From Gammaproteobacteria bacterium (GTDB taxonomy: Bacteria; Pseudomonadota; Gammaproteobacteria; SZUA-140), in NCBI GenBank assembly GCA_016218365.1, contig JACREF010000008.1, forward strand, positions 124,001-188,000: 64,000 nt of DNA. The letters are read 5' to 3'. A model generated the notes under the pieces. It did not search any database and was not told where the DNA came from. It saw nothing but the letters and a program-made list of their open reading frames with translations. This document shows, one piece after another, positions 35,134-42,174 of this stretch; positions within the stretch are counted from its first letter, which is position 1; every line of letters begins with the position of its first letter. The position numbers and the translations under genes are program-made.

Positions 35134-37635
35134 TCATGAATTTTCCTGCCGCCGGTTACTCTTCACTGGCGTCACCGGCTTTACATCCCATACCTTCTTT
35201 GCATATTCCTGTATGGTCCGGTCGCTGGAGAACCTGCCCATATGGGCGACATTGAGGATGGCGCGGCGCGCCCATTCCTCGTGATCCTGATAGAGCGCGC
35301 TGACCCTGTCCTGGGCGGCGATATAGCTGGCATAATCGGCCAGCAGCAGAAAGTTATCACCATTGTGCAGCAGGCTTTCAAAGATTGGCCGGTAACGCCC
35401 CGGCTCGTCTACCGAGAAGAAACCATTGCCGATCAGGTCCAGCGCCTGCCTCAGCTCGGCATTGCCGTGGTAATATTCCCAGGGGTTGTAGCCCCGCGCA
35501 CGCAGCTCGGCCACCTGTGGCGTGGTCAGACCGAAGATGAAGATATTGTCATCGCCGACTTCCTCGCGGATTTCAATATTGGCGCCGTCCAGGGTGCCGA
35601 TGGTCAGCGCGCCATTGAGCGCCATCTTCATATTGCCGGTGCCGGAGGCCTCAGTGCCTGCGGTTGAAATCTGCTCGGAGAGCTCGCTGGCGGGAAATAT
35701 CTTCTCCGCCATGGAGACGTTGTAGTTAGGGTAAAACACCACCTTCAGCAGATCGCCCACTGCCGGGTCGTGGTTGACGATGGCCGCCACGTCGTTGATC
35801 AGACGGATGATCAGCTTTGCCATCCAGTAGGCGGGCGCCGCCTTGCCGCCGAAGATCACCGTGCGCGGCGTGATGCCGTGTGTCTGGCCGCAACGGATGC
35901 GATTGTAGAGCGTGATCACATGCAATACGTTGAGCAGCTGGCGCTTGTATTCGTGGATGCGCTTGACCTGTACGTCGAACAGCGAATCCGCGTCCACCCG
36001 CACACCGATATGCTGACCGATATACTCGGCAAGATACAGCTTGTTGGCATGCTTGACGGCGCGGAACTGCGCGCGGAATTTCGGATCCTCGGCATGCTCG
36101 ACCAGCTTGCCGAGCTGTGCGAGGTCGCGCACAAAGCCGCTGCCGATGCGTGAGGCAATCAGTTCCGACAGGCGCGGGTTGGCCTGATGCAGCCAGCGGC
36201 GCGGCGTGATCCCATTGGTGACATTGATGAACTTGGCCGGGAAGATGCGGTGGAAATCGGCGAACAGCGCGGTCTTCAACAGCTCGCTATGGATGGCGGC
36301 GACGCCATTCACGGTATGGCTGCCGACCACCGCCAGGTGTGCCATGCGCACACGCCGGCCACCCATCTCGTCAATGATGGAAACGCGCTTCAGCAAGTCG
36401 GTATCACCGGGAAAGCTATGGTTTACCTGCCCGAGAAAACGGCTATTGATCTCGTAGATGATCTCCAGATGACGCGGCAGTACGCGCCCGAATATCTCCA
36501 CCGGCCAGGTCTCCAAGGCCTCCGGCATCAGCGTATGATTGGTGTAGGCAAAGGTGCTTGTCACCAGGCTCCAGGCGTAATCCCACTTCAGATGATGCGT
36601 GTCGAGCAATTGATGCATCAGCTCTGCCACCGCGATGGCAGGGTGGGTATCATTTAGCTGAATGGCGATCTTTTCCGGCAGCAGATTCCATTCGTCGTGA
36701 TTGGACAGAAACCGGCGCAGGATGTCCTGGACCGATGCCGAAACAAAGAAATACTCCTGCTTGAGGCGCAACTCCCGCCCGTTTGACGACGAGTCATCCG
36801 GGTAGAGCACCTTGGACAGGTTTTCTGTAATATCTTTTTCTACCACCGCCCCGATATAATCGCCTGCATTGAAGGAATCGAGATTGAATTCACGCGTCGC
36901 CTTGGCGGCCCACAGCCGCAGGTTATTGACCGATTCCGTGTTGTAGCCGGGGATGGGCATATCATAGGCCATCGCCATCACCGTCTCACCCCCTATCCAG
37001 TGATGCTCGATAGTGCCGTGCATATCGGCAAATGTGACGACATGACCGTAAAAATTAACCGGGTAGAGGCGCTCCGGACGCTGGAACTCCCAGGGATTGC
37101 CATAACGCAGCCAGTTGTCCGGATGCTCCACCTGCTGCCCGTTCTCGATGCGCTGGTTGAACATGCCATATTCATAGCGGATGCCATAACCTTGACCAGG
37201 CAAATCGAGCGTCGCCATCGAGTCAAGAAAACAGGCGGCGAGACGCCCCAGGCCACCGTTACCGAGCGCGGCATCGGTTTCCAGTTCCTCGATCTGTTCC
37301 AGCCGCTGACCCAGGGCACCCAAGCCCTCGCGCAGCGATGGCGCTATCCCCAGGTTGAGCGCGGCATTCGACAGCGTGCGCCCGATCAGAAATTCCATCG
37401 ACAGATAATAGACCCGTTTAGGGTCCTGCTCGTAATGATTGTCCACCGTCCTCGACCATCGCTCGATCAGATGATCGCGCACGGCGTGGGCAGCGGCGTC
37501 ATACCAATCACGCCCGGTGGCAACCTTGACGGACTTGCCTATGGTATACATCAAATGATTGGTCAGCGAATGTTCGATTGAATGTTGGTCAGAGCGCAGG
37601 AAGTGCTTATAAGTATAATTCTTAGGGGTGCTCAT
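35134..37635 (-). CDS. glgP: Glycogen/alpha-glucan phosphorylase
   Basis: Releases glucose 1-phosphate from glycogen. The 833-residue enzyme carries YLSMEFLIGRTLSNA, ALGNGGLGRLAACFLDSMAT and the pyridoxal-phosphate lysine in EASGTGNMKMALNGAL. Length matches the family. The ATG at 37635 follows AGGAGGG. It is the first of three minus-strand genes (glgP, xfp, ackA); about 50 bp separate it from xfp. Confidence 0.96.
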   Translation of the reverse strand: MSTPKNYTYKHFLRSDQHSIEHSLTNHLMYTIGKSVKVATGRDWYDAAAHAVRDHLIERWSRTVDNHYEQDPKRVYYLSMEFLIGRTLSNAALNLGIAPSLREGLGALGQRLEQIEELETDAALGNGGLGRLAACFLDSMATLDLPGQGYGIRYEYGMFNQRIENGQQVEHPDNWLRYGNPWEFQRPERLYPVNFYGHVVTFADMHGTIEHHWIGGETVMAMAYDMPIPGYNTESVNNLRLWAAKATREFNLDSFNAGDYIGAVVEKDITENLSKVLYPDDSSSNGRELRLKQEYFFVSASVQDILRRFLSNHDEWNLLPEKIAIQLNDTHPAIAVAELMHQLLDTHHLKWDYAWSLVTSTFAYTNHTLMPEALETWPVEIFGRVLPRHLEIIYEINSRFLGQVNHSFPGDTDLLKRVSIIDEMGGRRVRMAHLAVVGSHTVNGVAAIHSELLKTALFADFHRIFPAKFINVTNGITPRRWLHQANPRLSELIASRIGSGFVRDLAQLGKLVEHAEDPKFRAQFRAVKHANKLYLAEYIGQHIGVRVDADSLFDVQVKRIHEYKRQLLNVLHVITLYNRIRCGQTHGITPRTVIFGGKAAPAYWMAKLIIRLINDVAAIVNHDPAVGDLLKVVFYPNYNVSMAEKIFPASELSEQISTAGTEASGTGNMKMALNGALTIGTLDGANIEIREEVGDDNIFIFGLTTPQVAELRARGYNPWEYYHGNAELRQALDLIGNGFFSVDEPGRYRPIFESLLHNGDNFLLLADYASYIAAQDRVSALYQDHEEWARRAILNVAHMGRFSSDRTIQEYAKKVWDVKPVTPVKSNRRQENS

Positions 37636-37880
37636 GAAGCCCTCCTGACCACAACATTACGGCACGAGAAGAAAACTCTATCCGGCAGACGGTTGGCCCG
37701 CCTCAGCCCGTCTTTTATCGACGGGCATCACATTAACCTGAAGCCAAGGACCTGCTCAACTGGATAGCGCGCCCTAGAGGATAAAGCTGGGCACTGGTCA
37801 GAAGGTCTTTCCATCCCGTCTGTATCAGTCGTGAAAAACATCTCTTCCAGCCTGACAGGCCGGAAACAATCCCCCTTATG
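37636..37880. other. Intergenic region holding one end of the accessory region
   Basis: About 245 bp upstream of glgP and downstream of the alkD remnant. It contains the 16-bp tRNA-Arg 3'-end copy at 37767-37782, directly preceded by GCTCAACTGGATAG, which resembles a tRNA D-arm. This is the core-side boundary of the accessory region. No open frame is supported. Confidence 0.45.
37767..37782. repeat. 16-bp copy of the tRNA-Arg 3' end (att-like direct repeat)
   Basis: GCGCGCCCTAGAGGAT here is identical to 42100-42115, the 3' part of the minus-strand tRNA-Arg gene, in the same orientation. Direct repetition of a tRNA 3' end at a distance of 4.3 kb is the classic footprint of site-specific integration. 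No integrase dedicated to the tRNA site is present between the copies. Confidence 0.6.
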
Positions 37881-38670
37881 TTAGCAAGAACCTTGCTGCG
37901 GTCCTAATATCCGTGCATCATCCGGCGCAATACGCGATGCCGATTGCGCTGCAGGTCGATATGATCCATGCAAATAGGCCTGCCTTTCGCTTTCCGGCAG
38001 TTTCTCGATTGCATAGCGCAACATGGTACGCGGCATCTCTTTATAGTGTCTCGCCAGAAATCCTGTTTCAATATCCCGGCTTCTCTTGCCCACTTCGCGC
38101 AACATCCACCCCACGGCCTTGTGGATCAGGTCTTCCGGGTCTGCCAGCAACATCGCGGCAATTGTCAGGGTATCTGTGAAGTCGTCTCTTTTTACAAAAT
38201 AGAGCGTGGACATCACCGCCATCCTTCGTTCCCACAGGCTTTTTGATCGTACCAGCCGATAAACAGGTTTTCTATTTCTGGAAAACAGGTGAGCCCCGAT
38301 AATATGCGGCGCTGAACAATCAACCAGATCCCAGTTATTGATGCATGCGGCATGCCGCAGGTAAAAGCGAAAGATCGCCTGCTGCTCACCACACTGTTTT
38401 TCAGAGGAATAGCGTGCAACCAGTATCAACACGGCCAGCAGTCGTGCTTCATGGAAAGGAGATCTCAGAAGATTCTCGATATCTCTCAAGGAGAGGGTGC
38501 AATATTCTTTGGCGCATTTTCTGATGGCCGGGACCCGTATCCCGAGGATACCTATCCCCTTCACCATATTCTCCCTTGCCAGTCTTGAAAAATCGCTGCG
38601 AATGGGCTGCAATCTCGCTGTCCCCCAGCTCCCGCAGCGTGCTGATGATTGTAGCGGCCTGCCCACCCAT
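37881..38670 (-). pseudogene. Frameshifted DNA alkylation repair protein (AlkD family)
   Basis: Two frames together give a complete AlkD-like HEAT-repeat glycosylase. The N-terminal part (ATG at 38670 or TTG at 38685) reads QRFFKTGKGEYGEGDRY and then leaves homology. The next frame continues GILGIRVPAIRKCAKEY through NNWDLVDCSAPHIIGAHL, LWERRMAVMSTLYF, KAVGWMLREVGKRSRDIE and MPRTMLRYAIEKLPE to 37881. One extra C in the string TATCC around 38545-38552 explains the shift. A sequencing error would also produce this. The intact enzyme removes alkylated bases such as 3-methyladenine and 7-methylguanine. Confidence 0.82.
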
Positions 38671-38786
38671 GATGGGATCTACCAATCTCCAGCGCCGCCG
38701 GACACCGGCCGCAGGCGCTGACTCAGACTATTACGGATGTTCAATTTCATGTCGTGCGCAACAGGAGTTTGGCCCCTTATATTCTG

Positions 38787-38846
38787 CCATAACGCAACCA
38801 TGCCCAAAATTAGAACTCATAAACCGTGGTCTGTTTCGTGTTACGT
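38787..38846 (-). repeat. Degenerate attC-like site after the CHAT-like cassette
   Basis: On the minus strand ACGTAAC (38840-38846), overlapping the stop of the 38841-39590 gene, and GTTATGG (38787-38793) stand where attC R'' and R' boxes are expected, about 60 bp apart. Both deviate from RYYYAAC and GTTRRRY. The internal symmetry is weak, so this is only a plausible decayed site. Confidence 0.35.
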
Positions 38847-39590
38847 TCTGGGCCCCGCTTTCAATTTCCCGGAATTCCACAACCGAAAGCTTGAGCTTCC
38901 CGGCACCGACTCACGCGCGTGCCGGAAGGCAACGCCCGTGGTCTTCCCATTTAAGAGGTGGCTAGTTAGAAAAGTCTGACAGAATTGTGAAGCAACTGCT
39001 CCTTCAACAGAGTGAAATGGCCCAATAAAATACCTACAGATAGGTGCTTCCGACATGATTGCACCAAAACTCTGGTACCCAGTTTTGCAGCACAAGGATA
39101 TGTAGGTCTTTTTTGGGGCACCATGTACTCGAAGTTCCTGGACGAGGGTAGCGGAATCTTTCCAACCATCAACGGCGAACTTGATACCCGTTTTATTCCC
39201 ATGACCTATCCAAATTACGTGCGAATATGCTGCTTGGTTCTGCTGCCAGAATTGCGTTAACTCCGCGAGACTTCGAACACGAACAGAGCGGATTTGATCA
39301 TCCGGAACAAGTAGGCGGCAAAATTGGGCCACGGATTTAGCGAGCGGGTCCAATAACGTATGTTCAGTTTCGAAGTCACCAATATTTATAACAAGTATTC
39401 CGACATCCTTGTGTAGTAGTGCAGACCCAATCAAACCAGACGGATTTCCGTCTCGCAAACGCACCTTCACTCGTTTTCCGTTGAGCTCAACTACGCTGGT
39501 CTTGTATAGCGCCACCCCCGTGCTTTCCATGCCAGGAATGCATGTGCAGGGAACATATACGGTATCGCCAATATGAAGGGTTCTCGCCAT
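38841..39590 (-). CDS. CHAT/caspase-like cysteine peptidase homologue in an integron cassette
   Basis: A 249-residue protein of unknown function. Residues 1-60 look like an SH3-like beta-barrel (HIGDTVYVP, NGKRVKVRLRDG). The rest has the clan CD pattern: a hydrophobic strand and HG dyad (VIWIGHG, H130-G131), then after about 35 residues a strand ending in SLCCKTG (C168), matching the CHAT motif LSACxTG. The later IGPFHSVEGAVASQF and GVAFRHARE complete the fold. No signal peptide is seen. CHAT proteins are often proteases in immunity or cell-death systems; that role is inferred. The start lies 11 bp from an attC site and the stop within another. Confidence 0.72.
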   Translation of the reverse strand: MARTLHIGDTVYVPCTCIPGMESTGVALYKTSVVELNGKRVKVRLRDGNPSGLIGSALLHKDVGILVINIGDFETEHTLLDPLAKSVAQFCRLLVPDDQIRSVRVRSLAELTQFWQQNQAAYSHVIWIGHGNKTGIKFAVDGWKDSATLVQELRVHGAPKKTYISLCCKTGYQSFGAIMSEAPICRYFIGPFHSVEGAVASQFCQTFLTSHLLNGKTTGVAFRHARESVPGSSSFRLWNSGKLKAGPRT

Positions 39591-39600
39591 AGTTTTTGGC

Positions 39601-39690
39601 AGCTAACGCCATGCATAAGCCGCGAGCAAAACGCGCGGCGACTTGCGAGTCGAGTATGCGGAGCACACGGGCTTGATGCATTTGTTGGGT
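39601..39690 (-). repeat. attC recombination site (90 bp)
   Basis: On the minus strand it begins with ACCCAAC (complement of 39684-39690; matches RYYYAAC) and ends with GTTAGCT (39601-39607; one mismatch to GTTRRRY). The inner arms AAATGCATCAAGC and GCTTATGCATGGC are imperfect complements, and GC-rich variable sequence lies between them. It begins 4 bp after the stop at 39695 and ends 10 bp before the ATG at 39590, the usual tight spacing of gene cassettes. Confidence 0.82.
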
Positions 39691-39694
39691 GTCT

Positions 39695-40138
39695 TCATTG
39701 CCGACTCAATTCAGCGATGAATTCGTGAAGCCGACGCGACCTGCCATCAAGTGACTTCGACATTTTCGATTTCTCCGAGCTGTCACCGTAGAACGTCATG
39801 CCGCTAAAGTCTCTAAATCGAACAACGTATGCGGCACCAAGACTATCGCGCAGCCAAGCTTCAACGCGCGCCACCCAGGTGTTATGGTCCGTAACTGGGA
39901 GCGGCGTTTGATCCAGCCGCGCCCGCAATGCTTGAGCCTCTTGAATAAAGGTTGCCAACTTTTCAGCTTGGTGCCTTCGCTCGGCGGGCGTGATCTTTTC
40001 TTCTTTGATAGGAAGCAGATCCTTTGACTTTTTCGTAGCCCAGGACAATAGATCGACGTTGTTTGTCCACGTCAGATACGTGAGCCATCCGAGGAAGAGC
40101 GTTAAAACAATTCTGCTGATCCAAAGTGTCATGTACAT
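39695..40138 (-). CDS. Unknown membrane-anchored protein, integron cassette gene
   Basis: A 147-residue protein with one N-terminal membrane helix (residues about 5-25, WISRIVLTLFLGWLTYLTW). A basic and helical segment follows (ITPAERRHQAEKLATFIQEAQALRARL), then a C-terminal domain of no recognised family (VVRFRDFSGMTFYG). The ATG at 40138 (or 40132) is preferred; the longer frame to 40150 uses a TTG inside the attC site. The gene lies alone between two attC sites, typical for a cassette. No function can be assigned. Confidence 0.7.
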   Translation of the reverse strand: MYMTLWISRIVLTLFLGWLTYLTWTNNVDLLSWATKKSKDLLPIKEEKITPAERRHQAEKLATFIQEAQALRARLDQTPLPVTDHNTWVARVEAWLRDSLGAAYVVRFRDFSGMTFYGDSSEKSKMSKSLDGRSRRLHEFIAELSRQ

Positions 40139-40144
40139 TTCGAC

Positions 40145-40207
40145 ACCCAACGTAAAAGTGAGGGACTGCGCGCTTTTGCGCAGTCCCTATCGACTGCCGG
40201 GTTGGGC
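40145..40207 (-). repeat. attC recombination site (63 bp)
   Basis: On the minus strand it starts with GCCCAAC (complement of 40201-40207; exact RYYYAAC) and ends with GTTGGGT (40145-40151; exact GTTRRRY). The centre holds near-perfect arms AGGGACTGCGC and GCGCAGTCCCT. It begins 1 bp after the stop of the 40209 gene and ends 7 bp before the next ATG. This short form is near the lower end of attC lengths. Confidence 0.87.
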
Positions 40208-40208
40208 A

Positions 40209-40790
40209 TCATCCGAAGAATACCTTGGCGATGATGCCTACAATGGCGATGACAACAGCAACTACAATTTCGGCGAGATACTTGCGCCACCATGGCTCGG
40301 CCTTCGCTTGAGGACTTGCGCTCCGATGCGAAAGGACAGAGTAGATCGAGCACGCTGTGAAATGCTGAGCGGTGCATGATGACCACGACCAAAGAGGGTG
40401 ACCGGGAGGAGTGCCATCTTTTTCGAGACGCTGGTGAGCAAAGTCCGAATCGATTTCATCACCGTACTTGGTGAGGCCACTTGCGAAATACCCGAATCGC
40501 TCAAATGTGACCTCTGGACAGAAGTTGCAATAGATGGATGGGTTGTCAGGAGTACCGAATAGAGATGTGGCTTGCTCGTCGGTACGTGGCCAAAGGTCGC
40601 TTGATTTCCAATTCTTGAGAAGCCGCTCATCTTCGGCCTCAGGAATCTTTGTACTGCCCGCTTTGCCAAGAAGAGACAAGCTCTGGTAGTAGCGCGGGCA
40701 CGACTGAACAGTTGCGAAAGGGCAGCGAAAAGCAACGCCTCGCTCTTGGCTTAAATTTGCGTACCACTCACGATTAGGAATATCCGTCAT
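40209..40790 (-). CDS. Unknown Cys-containing tail-anchored protein, first cassette gene
   Basis: A 193-residue protein with a C-terminal membrane helix (about 172-191, AEIVVAVVIAIVGIIAKVF), preceded by basic PWWRKY. This suggests a tail anchor with the soluble part in the cytoplasm. Six cysteines occur in pairs or spaced sets (C23/C31 in CPFATVQSCPRYY, C88/C91 in YCNFC, C139/C147) and could bind metal. No known family was recognised. It is the first cassette after the attI-like region and would be read from an integron promoter or its own. Its stop lies next to the attC at 40145-40207. Confidence 0.72.
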   Translation of the reverse strand: MTDIPNREWYANLSQERGVAFRCPFATVQSCPRYYQSLSLLGKAGSTKIPEAEDERLLKNWKSSDLWPRTDEQATSLFGTPDNPSIYCNFCPEVTFERFGYFASGLTKYGDEIDSDFAHQRLEKDGTPPGHPLWSWSSCTAQHFTACSIYSVLSHRSASPQAKAEPWWRKYLAEIVVAVVIAIVGIIAKVFFG

Positions 40791-40810
40791 GTAATCGGCC
40801 AGCCTATGAT

Positions 40811-40956
40811 GCCCAACCGTATAATAGGCGGGTTATGCAGTATTGAGTGATAGGCGGCTTCCGCCTATTGTGCGATTGACGGAATCCGCCTAGCATTAAT
40901 CCCATGATGAGCATTTCAGGGCTGGATGCCCGCCTCACTGGACAAGGAGTGTCGCC
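40811..40956. other. attI-like region between cassettes and integrase remnant
   Basis: A 146-bp divergent interval. GCCCAAC at 40811-40817 reads GTTGGGC on minus, an exact GTTRRRY core that would be the junction of attI and the first cassette. It is followed by a perfect hairpin ATAGGCGG/CCGCCTAT (40850-40868) and further TAGGCGG/CCGCCTA copies near 40824 and 40886, which could be integrase-binding repeats. No LexA box was seen before the integrase start. Confidence 0.6.
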
Positions 40957-41337
40957 ATGTCGGATTCCCTTTCTCAGCATCCCGATGCCGCCTCGCGTTT
41001 TTTTGATAACTATCTGATCCTGCTCGACAGAAATAAGATGCCCGACAAGCGGCGGTGCTGGTATGTCAAGCATGTCGAGGACTTCATTAGGGCGCAAAAC
41101 AGGCGCAAGGTCAAGGGGCTTTCCGGTCATGATGTAAGCGGATACCTTGCCATGCTAGGCCGCCACAACCGGCTGCAGGACTGGCAATTTTCCCAATGTA
41201 TCGATGCTATGTGGATTCTCTACATCGAGGATCTCGCCTCAATCTCGCTGGATTTGATCACCTCTTCGATAAGGATTTCAGCACGGCGCAACGTGAAGCC
41301 CAGCACCTTCATCCGCCCGATCAGGCGCCCCTGACGG
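40957..41337 (+). pseudogene. Truncated integron-type integrase, N-terminal part only
   Basis: A 126-codon frame, of which residues 1 to about 90 look like the N-terminal SAM-like domain of long gammaproteobacterial integron integrases: RFFDNYLILLDRNKMPD, WYVKHVEDFIRAQNRRK, LSGHDVSGYLAMLGRHNRLQ and WQFSQCIDAMWILY. Homology stops near 41230, where sequence antisense to a Fic-family gene begins. The catalytic domain with the R-H-R-Y residues is missing, so it cannot recombine DNA. It retains a strong AAGGAG site and lies divergent from the cassettes, the standard intI position. Confidence 0.72.
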
Positions 41338-41429
41338 TGATGCACGGTGGCAAGCCGCCCCGCCAGGGCGCTGTGATCCCGGCGAAATTTCGGCCAGTCT
41401 GTTAGCTGATGGATATATTTTGTCGCCAT
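41220..41429 (-). pseudogene. Fragment of a Fic-family protein (DUF4172 N-terminal domain)
   Basis: From the ATG at 41429 the minus strand reads KYIHQLTDWPKFRRDHSAL, then RHRQGRL-type residues HHRQGRLIGRMKVLGF and EEVIKSSEIE. These match the DUF4172 domain at the N-terminus of many Fic/DOC AMP-transferases. It ends within 10 codons after KSSEIE, and no Fic core (HPFxxGNGR) follows. The break coincides with the break of the integrase on the other strand, so the two truncated genes meet tail to tail near 41230-41240. Confidence 0.68.
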
Positions 41430-41734
41430 AACATCCGCATATTGTGCGGAGATTATGGGTTCTAATCTCCGCACGCCTGGCAGGATCGGTGAGGCTGGCG
41501 AATCACGCAGCGGGCGTGGCTTGGGGACACCCATTTTAGATTCACCCATCGCCAACACTGACGCTGCTGGTCAATGAAATCACTGTCACCGCGATGAGGT
41601 AAAGGTAACGGGCAGCTGCATGGGATGCAAAAGACACGATGAGAAAAGCGCCCGAAACGATACGCCTGGGCACTGGGTTGAATATATTGCCCTTGTGTGA
41701 TGCCTGACGCCGCGGAGCACCGCTTAATTACTGT

Positions 41735-41947: not shown

Positions 41948-42097
41948 CGGCTCGTCCTTATAAGGCAGGAAATTAAAGGCATTACTCTGCTGCATCGGCC
42001 AGAGACATAAATAATAGAGACACAAATAATTAAGAGTGGTGCCCGCTGTCATTGCAGGGAGCGGACGGGTGAGGAAGTGCCCAGAAACATACCGGAA

Positions 42098-42174
42098 TGG
42101 CGCGCCCTAGAGGATTCGAACCTCTGACCTTTGGAATCGGAATCCAACGCTCTATCCAACTGAGCTAAGGGCGC
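42098..42174 (-). tRNA. tRNA-Arg (anticodon CCG)
   Basis: Cloverleaf on the minus strand: acceptor GCGCCCT pairs with AGGGCGC; D-arm GCTCAGTTGGATAGAGC; anticodon stem TTGGA/TCCAA around loop TTCCGAT giving anticodon CCG, reading CGG; T-arm AGAGGTTCGAATCCTCT; discriminator G and encoded CCA. Total 77 bases. It follows glmS on the same strand. Its last 16 bases before CCA recur at 37767-37782. Confidence 0.95.

Follow-up and report, generated by a model that had tools for sequence, protein, structure and literature searches.

The locus described here is, with a probability of about 0.93, a decayed integron whose gene cassettes have been frozen in place. In the window (the whole stretch of DNA that was analysed, 64,000 nucleotides, to which all bare coordinates refer), two attC sites, an attI motif, truncated integrase and fic genes and intact cassette ORFs lie side by side, and the cassettes are absent from relatives. 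A relic integron of the usual layout had been proposed in a first-pass annotation made from the letters alone, and the attI, the truncated integrase and the order of the cassettes all fit that proposal. Neither of the two observations that the annotation had set against its own reading was made: an attC model matches both of its sites, and the cassette genes are missing from the relatives searched.

A simple scan for R and L boxes put one site (attC2) at the top of the window, with no equal in five shuffles, and ranked the other (attC1) no better than chance sites. We therefore built a covariance model from 27 attC sites, none of them from the window's genome, drawn from class 1 and other plasmid integrons and from integrase-linked arrays of other genomes. 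This model gave exactly two matches at E ≤ 10 in the 64-kb window, both on the cassette strand (minus): attC2, the attC of cassette 2, at 39601-39690 (31.4 bits; E = 1e-5 in the window, 3.7e-4 genome-wide), and attC1, the attC of cassette 1, at 40145-40207 (21.7 bits; E = 0.003). On that strand both show the R''/R' and L''/L' boxes with an extrahelical base that are expected of an integron. The first-pass annotation had placed attC-like sites at these very coordinates and had suggested a covariance-model search such as IntegronFinder; the independent model used here, home-made rather than IntegronFinder itself, matches both. The modest lower score of 21.7 bits and the number of attC sites, two only, are among the points that speak against a decayed integron.

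As a positive control, the array that belongs to the genome's complete integron was found again by the model, with scores of 19.6-34.2 bits. Across the genome (2.26 Mb), matches of at least 19.6 bits fell only in integron-like loci among the 150 of 986 candidates that were scored, which is why attC1, found in the window search, does not appear there. With filters off, attC2 was matched in part at 9.5 bits, as against 31.4 bits for the whole site at default settings, a difference that we take to reflect a limit on match length. Folding, proposed earlier as a check on both sites, bore out attC1, which folds far better than its shuffles (z = -4.6), but not attC2, which by global folding does not (z = -0.8); attC2 is identified by its conserved R boxes and by L arms with one unpaired base (ATGCAT-C-AAGCC / GGCTT-ATGCAT). 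Nothing in Rfam matched at the attC sites. A degenerate third attC had been suspected at 38787-38846, and this suggestion did not hold up: the covariance model found no match there with filters on or off, the fold was unremarkable (z = +0.6), and the candidate was discarded. Separately, a 16-nt repeat (15/16) occurs between glgP and the end of that supposed site, at 37098-37113 and 38785-38800, and may be due to chance.

The exact GTTRRRY core reported at the junction with the leader is indeed present, as GTTGGGC on the minus strand at 40811-40817, exactly at the start of cassette 1. Around it runs the motif YAAC..GT..WTAGRCRG, which recurs upstream of long-form integrases in four other genomes (G004, G055, G092 and G067) and is more loosely present beside the genome's own C29 integrase. 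Since the core lies in a motif common to the regions upstream of related integrase genes, it is, to judge by alignment and position, the attI recombination core, placed beside the integrase start and at the first cassette boundary. The attI region with its accessory repeats spans 40810-40875 and contains an inverted repeat, ATAGGCGGCTTCCGCCTAT, at 40850-40868, about 40 nt beyond the core motif. This repeat follows the pattern WTAGRCRG-N-CYGYCTAW and is possibly an integrase accessory site or operator; in G062, G067, G007 and G014, repeats with the same spacing precede long-form integrases or fragments of such integrases. The attI pattern is short, occurs by chance and is not specific genome-wide, a reversed control being equally frequent, so its weight comes from its position. 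We dropped it as a genome-wide test and used it by position and alignment only.

Diverging from the cassettes, as intI does in an integron, an ORF on the plus strand begins at 40957. Its matches to curated families are weak (PF13495, 21 bits; TIGR02249, 20 bits against a cut-off of 265 that a full-length IntI of a complete, active integron would pass). Up to residue ~91, however, it aligns with eight integron integrases of 452-513 aa, in which an extra N-terminal domain precedes the TIGR02249 core; such long-form integrases measure 460-518 aa in the wider survey. The truncated gene thus comprises the start codon and ~91 codons of this extra domain (40957-41232); beyond it the ORF continues through unrelated sequence as far as 41334. 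The canonical IntI core has been lost together with the catalytic domain, and no catalytic domain was found at the locus. With ~91 codons left, the gene is that of a relic and not of an active integron. In a profile search the extra domain occurred in 49 of 369 gammaproteobacterial genomes, often in full-length genes and often in fragments or pseudogenes. Long-form integrases were present in eight of the 39 genomes with an over-cut-off TIGR02249 match (L022, L023, L024, L066, L067, L071, L072 and L073), and all of the further full-length carriers that were checked (8/8) scored well over the TIGR02249 cut-off. Several carriers and fragments adjoin attC sites, among them fragments in other genomes (L149, L150 and L163). 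Taken together, the alignment to long-form integrases, the TIGR02249 matches of full-length carriers and the neighbouring attC sites identify the ORF, by sequence comparison, as the start of a long-form integron integrase. It had earlier been read as the N-terminal domain of integron integrases: the assignment to an integron integrase stands, but the domain is the extra one of the long class, not the standard one. Phrase searches of the literature, which are weak evidence of absence, found no description of long-form integron integrases or of the shared attI motif.

Integrase homology stops at 41223-41235 and meets fic homology within ~10 nt. Head-to-head with the integrase fragment, on the minus strand at 41224-41449, lies the 5' end of a fic gene, recognised by a DNA match to Fic genes over that interval and by a match to its DUF4172 N-terminal domain (1.7e-16; residues corresponding to about 41417-41235). 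One deletion probably removed the 3' parts of both genes.

All three minus-strand ORFs of the original description are present, and they are packed tightly against the sites, with gaps of 1, 6, 4 and 10 nt. The cassette 1 gene (40209-40790) encodes a Cys-rich protein of 193 aa with a C-terminal hydrophobic helix, the cassette 2 gene (39695-40138) a protein of 147 aa with an N-terminal hydrophobic segment, and the third gene (38841-39590) a protein of 249 aa. What had been called three gene cassettes is better put as two complete ones, because the model matched nothing at 38787-38846 and the third gene is left without an attC of its own downstream, with filters on or off. This gene is a probable third cassette, either one without a recognisable attC of its own or else flanking DNA; we call it cassette 3. 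All three cassette ORFs are intact, whereas the integrase and fic are broken, a difference that may point to recent capture or selection. The cassettes may be expressed; a promoter scan found nothing at the expected place.

The products of the cassettes had been described as having no recognisable function, which holds for cassettes 1 and 2 but not for cassette 3. Cassette 1 belongs to no family in Pfam, NCBIfam, PHROGs or PADLOC and has no viral relative there; its gene is missing from 368 other gammaproteobacterial genomes, distant relatives (27-30% identity) are carried by six enterobacterial plasmids, and its structure model was useless (pLDDT 42). For cassette 2, neither a family in the same four collections nor a viral or other relative was found. 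Cassette 3 had no sequence match in the PDB, and the fold search alone gave a lead. In its predicted model (mean pLDDT 68, with most of the C-terminal domain at 70-90), the best fold match was SAVED-CHAT 8tl0_A (Z = 18.7 over 172 residues, rmsd 2.7), with the next rows at 12.7; Foldseek gave 5.7e-7 for the same structure. H130-G131 and C168 lie at the ends of predicted strands 124-129 and 161-165, and all three residues are invariant in four relatives. We take these to be the caspase-clan catalytic positions, so that cassette 3 is a candidate CHAT/caspase-fold (clan CD) cysteine protease.

In predicted fold (residues 63-243) and in having His-Gly and Cys at caspase positions, cassette 3 resembles the CHAT proteases of bacterial immunity (SAVED-CHAT 8tl0 and the TPR-CHAT of Craspase). 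It differs from them in being a stand-alone protein of 249 aa with a small N-terminal beta domain, and in matching no CHAT family by sequence. Relatives are scarce: 93 other genomes had none, a collection of 84,980 species had three, and those found belong to a Rhodanobacter and two marine alphaproteobacteria. In Primorskyibacter and Pseudohalocynthiibacter, the relative comes after genes with matches to DUF7665, Prok-JAB (weak) and ThiF. These E1/JAB-like neighbours resemble a ubiquitin-like conjugation set (loci L128:1980-5753 and L114:980-4753), and an IS30 transposase adjoins. A role in defence is plausible for cassette 3. That it founds an undescribed and very rare family of stand-alone CHAT/caspase-fold proteases, anti-phage in function and spread as single-gene cassettes, is a bolder idea that we hold only tentatively and think rather doubtful.

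The same genome also carries a complete, short-form integron, with intI at C29:2852-3898 (476.8 bits). Its two parts are C29:1-3898 and C24:217196-219726; the array runs to the end of the first contig and apparently resumes on C24. It has the same general layout as the relic but a short-form integrase without the extra N-terminal domain and a different attI. Its attC sites are 87-92% identical to attC1 (92% at C24:218922, 87% at C29:1965), which suggests cassette exchange between the two systems. A PemK/MazF-type toxin-antitoxin pair lies in this main cassette array (L021:17264-17862). Three further integron fragments are scattered over the genome: on C8 (L131:1950-2200), an attI and the beginning, ~15 codons long, of an intI like that of C29; on C18 (L093/L132), an attC, XhoI-like restriction-modification genes and an attI-like motif with no integrase; and on C11 (L094), attC sites next to the reverse transcriptase of a group II intron.

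That a second, intact integrase resides in the genome matters for the alternative that survives best, in which the C29 enzyme would have put the cassettes at a secondary site, making a CALIN by off-site insertion next to an unrelated integrase fragment. The likeness of attC1 to the sites of the resident array agrees with such an origin. The attI motif, however, lies exactly at the first cassette boundary, the divergent integrase start is at the usual distance from it, and the fragment is that of a long-form integrase, unlike the resident enzyme, which together leave off-site insertion a slim chance.

The locus lies close to a tRNA gene. A tRNA-Arg(CCG) was identified at 42097-42174 on the minus strand (ARAGORN and Rfam), and its 3' end (42097-42115) is repeated directly, at 18/19 nt, on the plus strand at 37764-37782, which marks the outer boundary of the putative inserted stretch. 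The two copies are 4.33 kb apart, the cassettes lie ~1.3 kb beyond the tRNA, and GC content is 0.50-0.54 inside the tRNA-bounded stretch versus 0.57-0.66 in the flanks. A comparison of cassette presence, as the first-pass annotation had advised, showed that same-family relatives keep glmS and then tRNA-Arg without the cassettes; neither alkD, glgP, the integrase fragment nor the cassettes were found at their glmS-tRNA-Arg junctions, several of these contigs ending near the tRNA. Some smaller features of the region may be recorded here. A weaker related repeat at 41648-41691 and the stretch 37769-37812 have CTGGGCACTGG in common. Directly after this tRNA-Arg, one relative (L116) has an ORF that resembles an integrase start. 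Next to the cassettes, an alkD-like DNA alkylation repair gene (37881-38685) appears by eye to be frameshifted near 38570; its N-terminal motif is in another frame, and the short upstream frame has no family match.

The bounding repeat, the low GC and the presence of other decayed genes are also what one would see in a tRNA-Arg genomic island with a relic integrase of its own, in which the attC-like hairpins would be incidental. We consider this even less probable than off-site insertion, as every full-length protein examined that had the integrase domain was an integron integrase, and the attC matches are independent of that domain. The two views are compatible: an island of this kind may have brought the relic integron in, or may contain it as a nested element. 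An assembly or binning artefact joining a foreign piece of contig into the genome can practically be set aside: this draft genome is split into 33 contigs, and assemblies often break at integron arrays (PMC9024848), but the locus is well inside a 197-kb contig, beside a glmS-tRNA-Arg pair also seen in relatives, and its attC types are common to other contigs of the genome.

For a decayed integron with frozen cassettes, we infer past recombination activity of the following kind. At the outset, an IntI-family tyrosine integrase of the long form would have been encoded rightwards from 40957, with attI beside its start, and would have inserted circular cassettes at the core at 40811-40817. The substrate would have been the bottom strand of each attC (the plus strand of the window) in single-stranded, folded form. 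The outcome would be genes 1 and 2, each with its own site (attC1 and attC2), and gene 3 at the far end, all read leftwards, away from attI. The later deletion would have fused integrase codon ~91 to the 5' part of the neighbouring, convergent fic, with loss of the rest of both, and would have frozen the array in place. Whatever attC came after gene 3 would have been lost at the far end, and any movement of the cassettes would now depend on the genome's other, intact integrase acting in trans.

Integrons with broken intI and frozen cassettes have long been known (PMC12444791, PMC9024848); in Xanthomonas, most isolates have integron modules that are inactive, and CALINs occur elsewhere in about half of the genomes (PMC12444791). 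Like the sedentary chromosomal integrons with inactivated intI of Xanthomonas and others (PMC12444791), the locus combines an attI, a truncated intI and frozen cassettes mostly of unknown function, and its cassettes are on the strand leading away from intI. It differs from them in that its array is very small, its integrase is a long-form one, extra N-terminal domain included, and it lies beside tRNA-Arg, not ilvD. The locus also fits the CALIN definition of IntegronFinder 2.0 (two or more attC sites with no functional intI close by), as judged with our home-made model and not with IntegronFinder itself, and it shares with CALINs (PMC9024848) the presence of a complete integron elsewhere in the genome. 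Unlike a CALIN, it keeps attI and the 5' end of intI, and descent from a complete integron is therefore visible.

As a small example of well-described decayed integrons, the locus is a good but ordinary one. Less ordinary are the long-form integrase and the attI motif that goes with it, the caspase-fold cassette, and the number of integron fragments that one genome carries. With an intact integron, a relic and three fragments in one genome, a single chromosome is enough to follow how integrons turn over and decay. Three intact genes also stay frozen in the relic, and for one of them a test of protease activity is now within reach.
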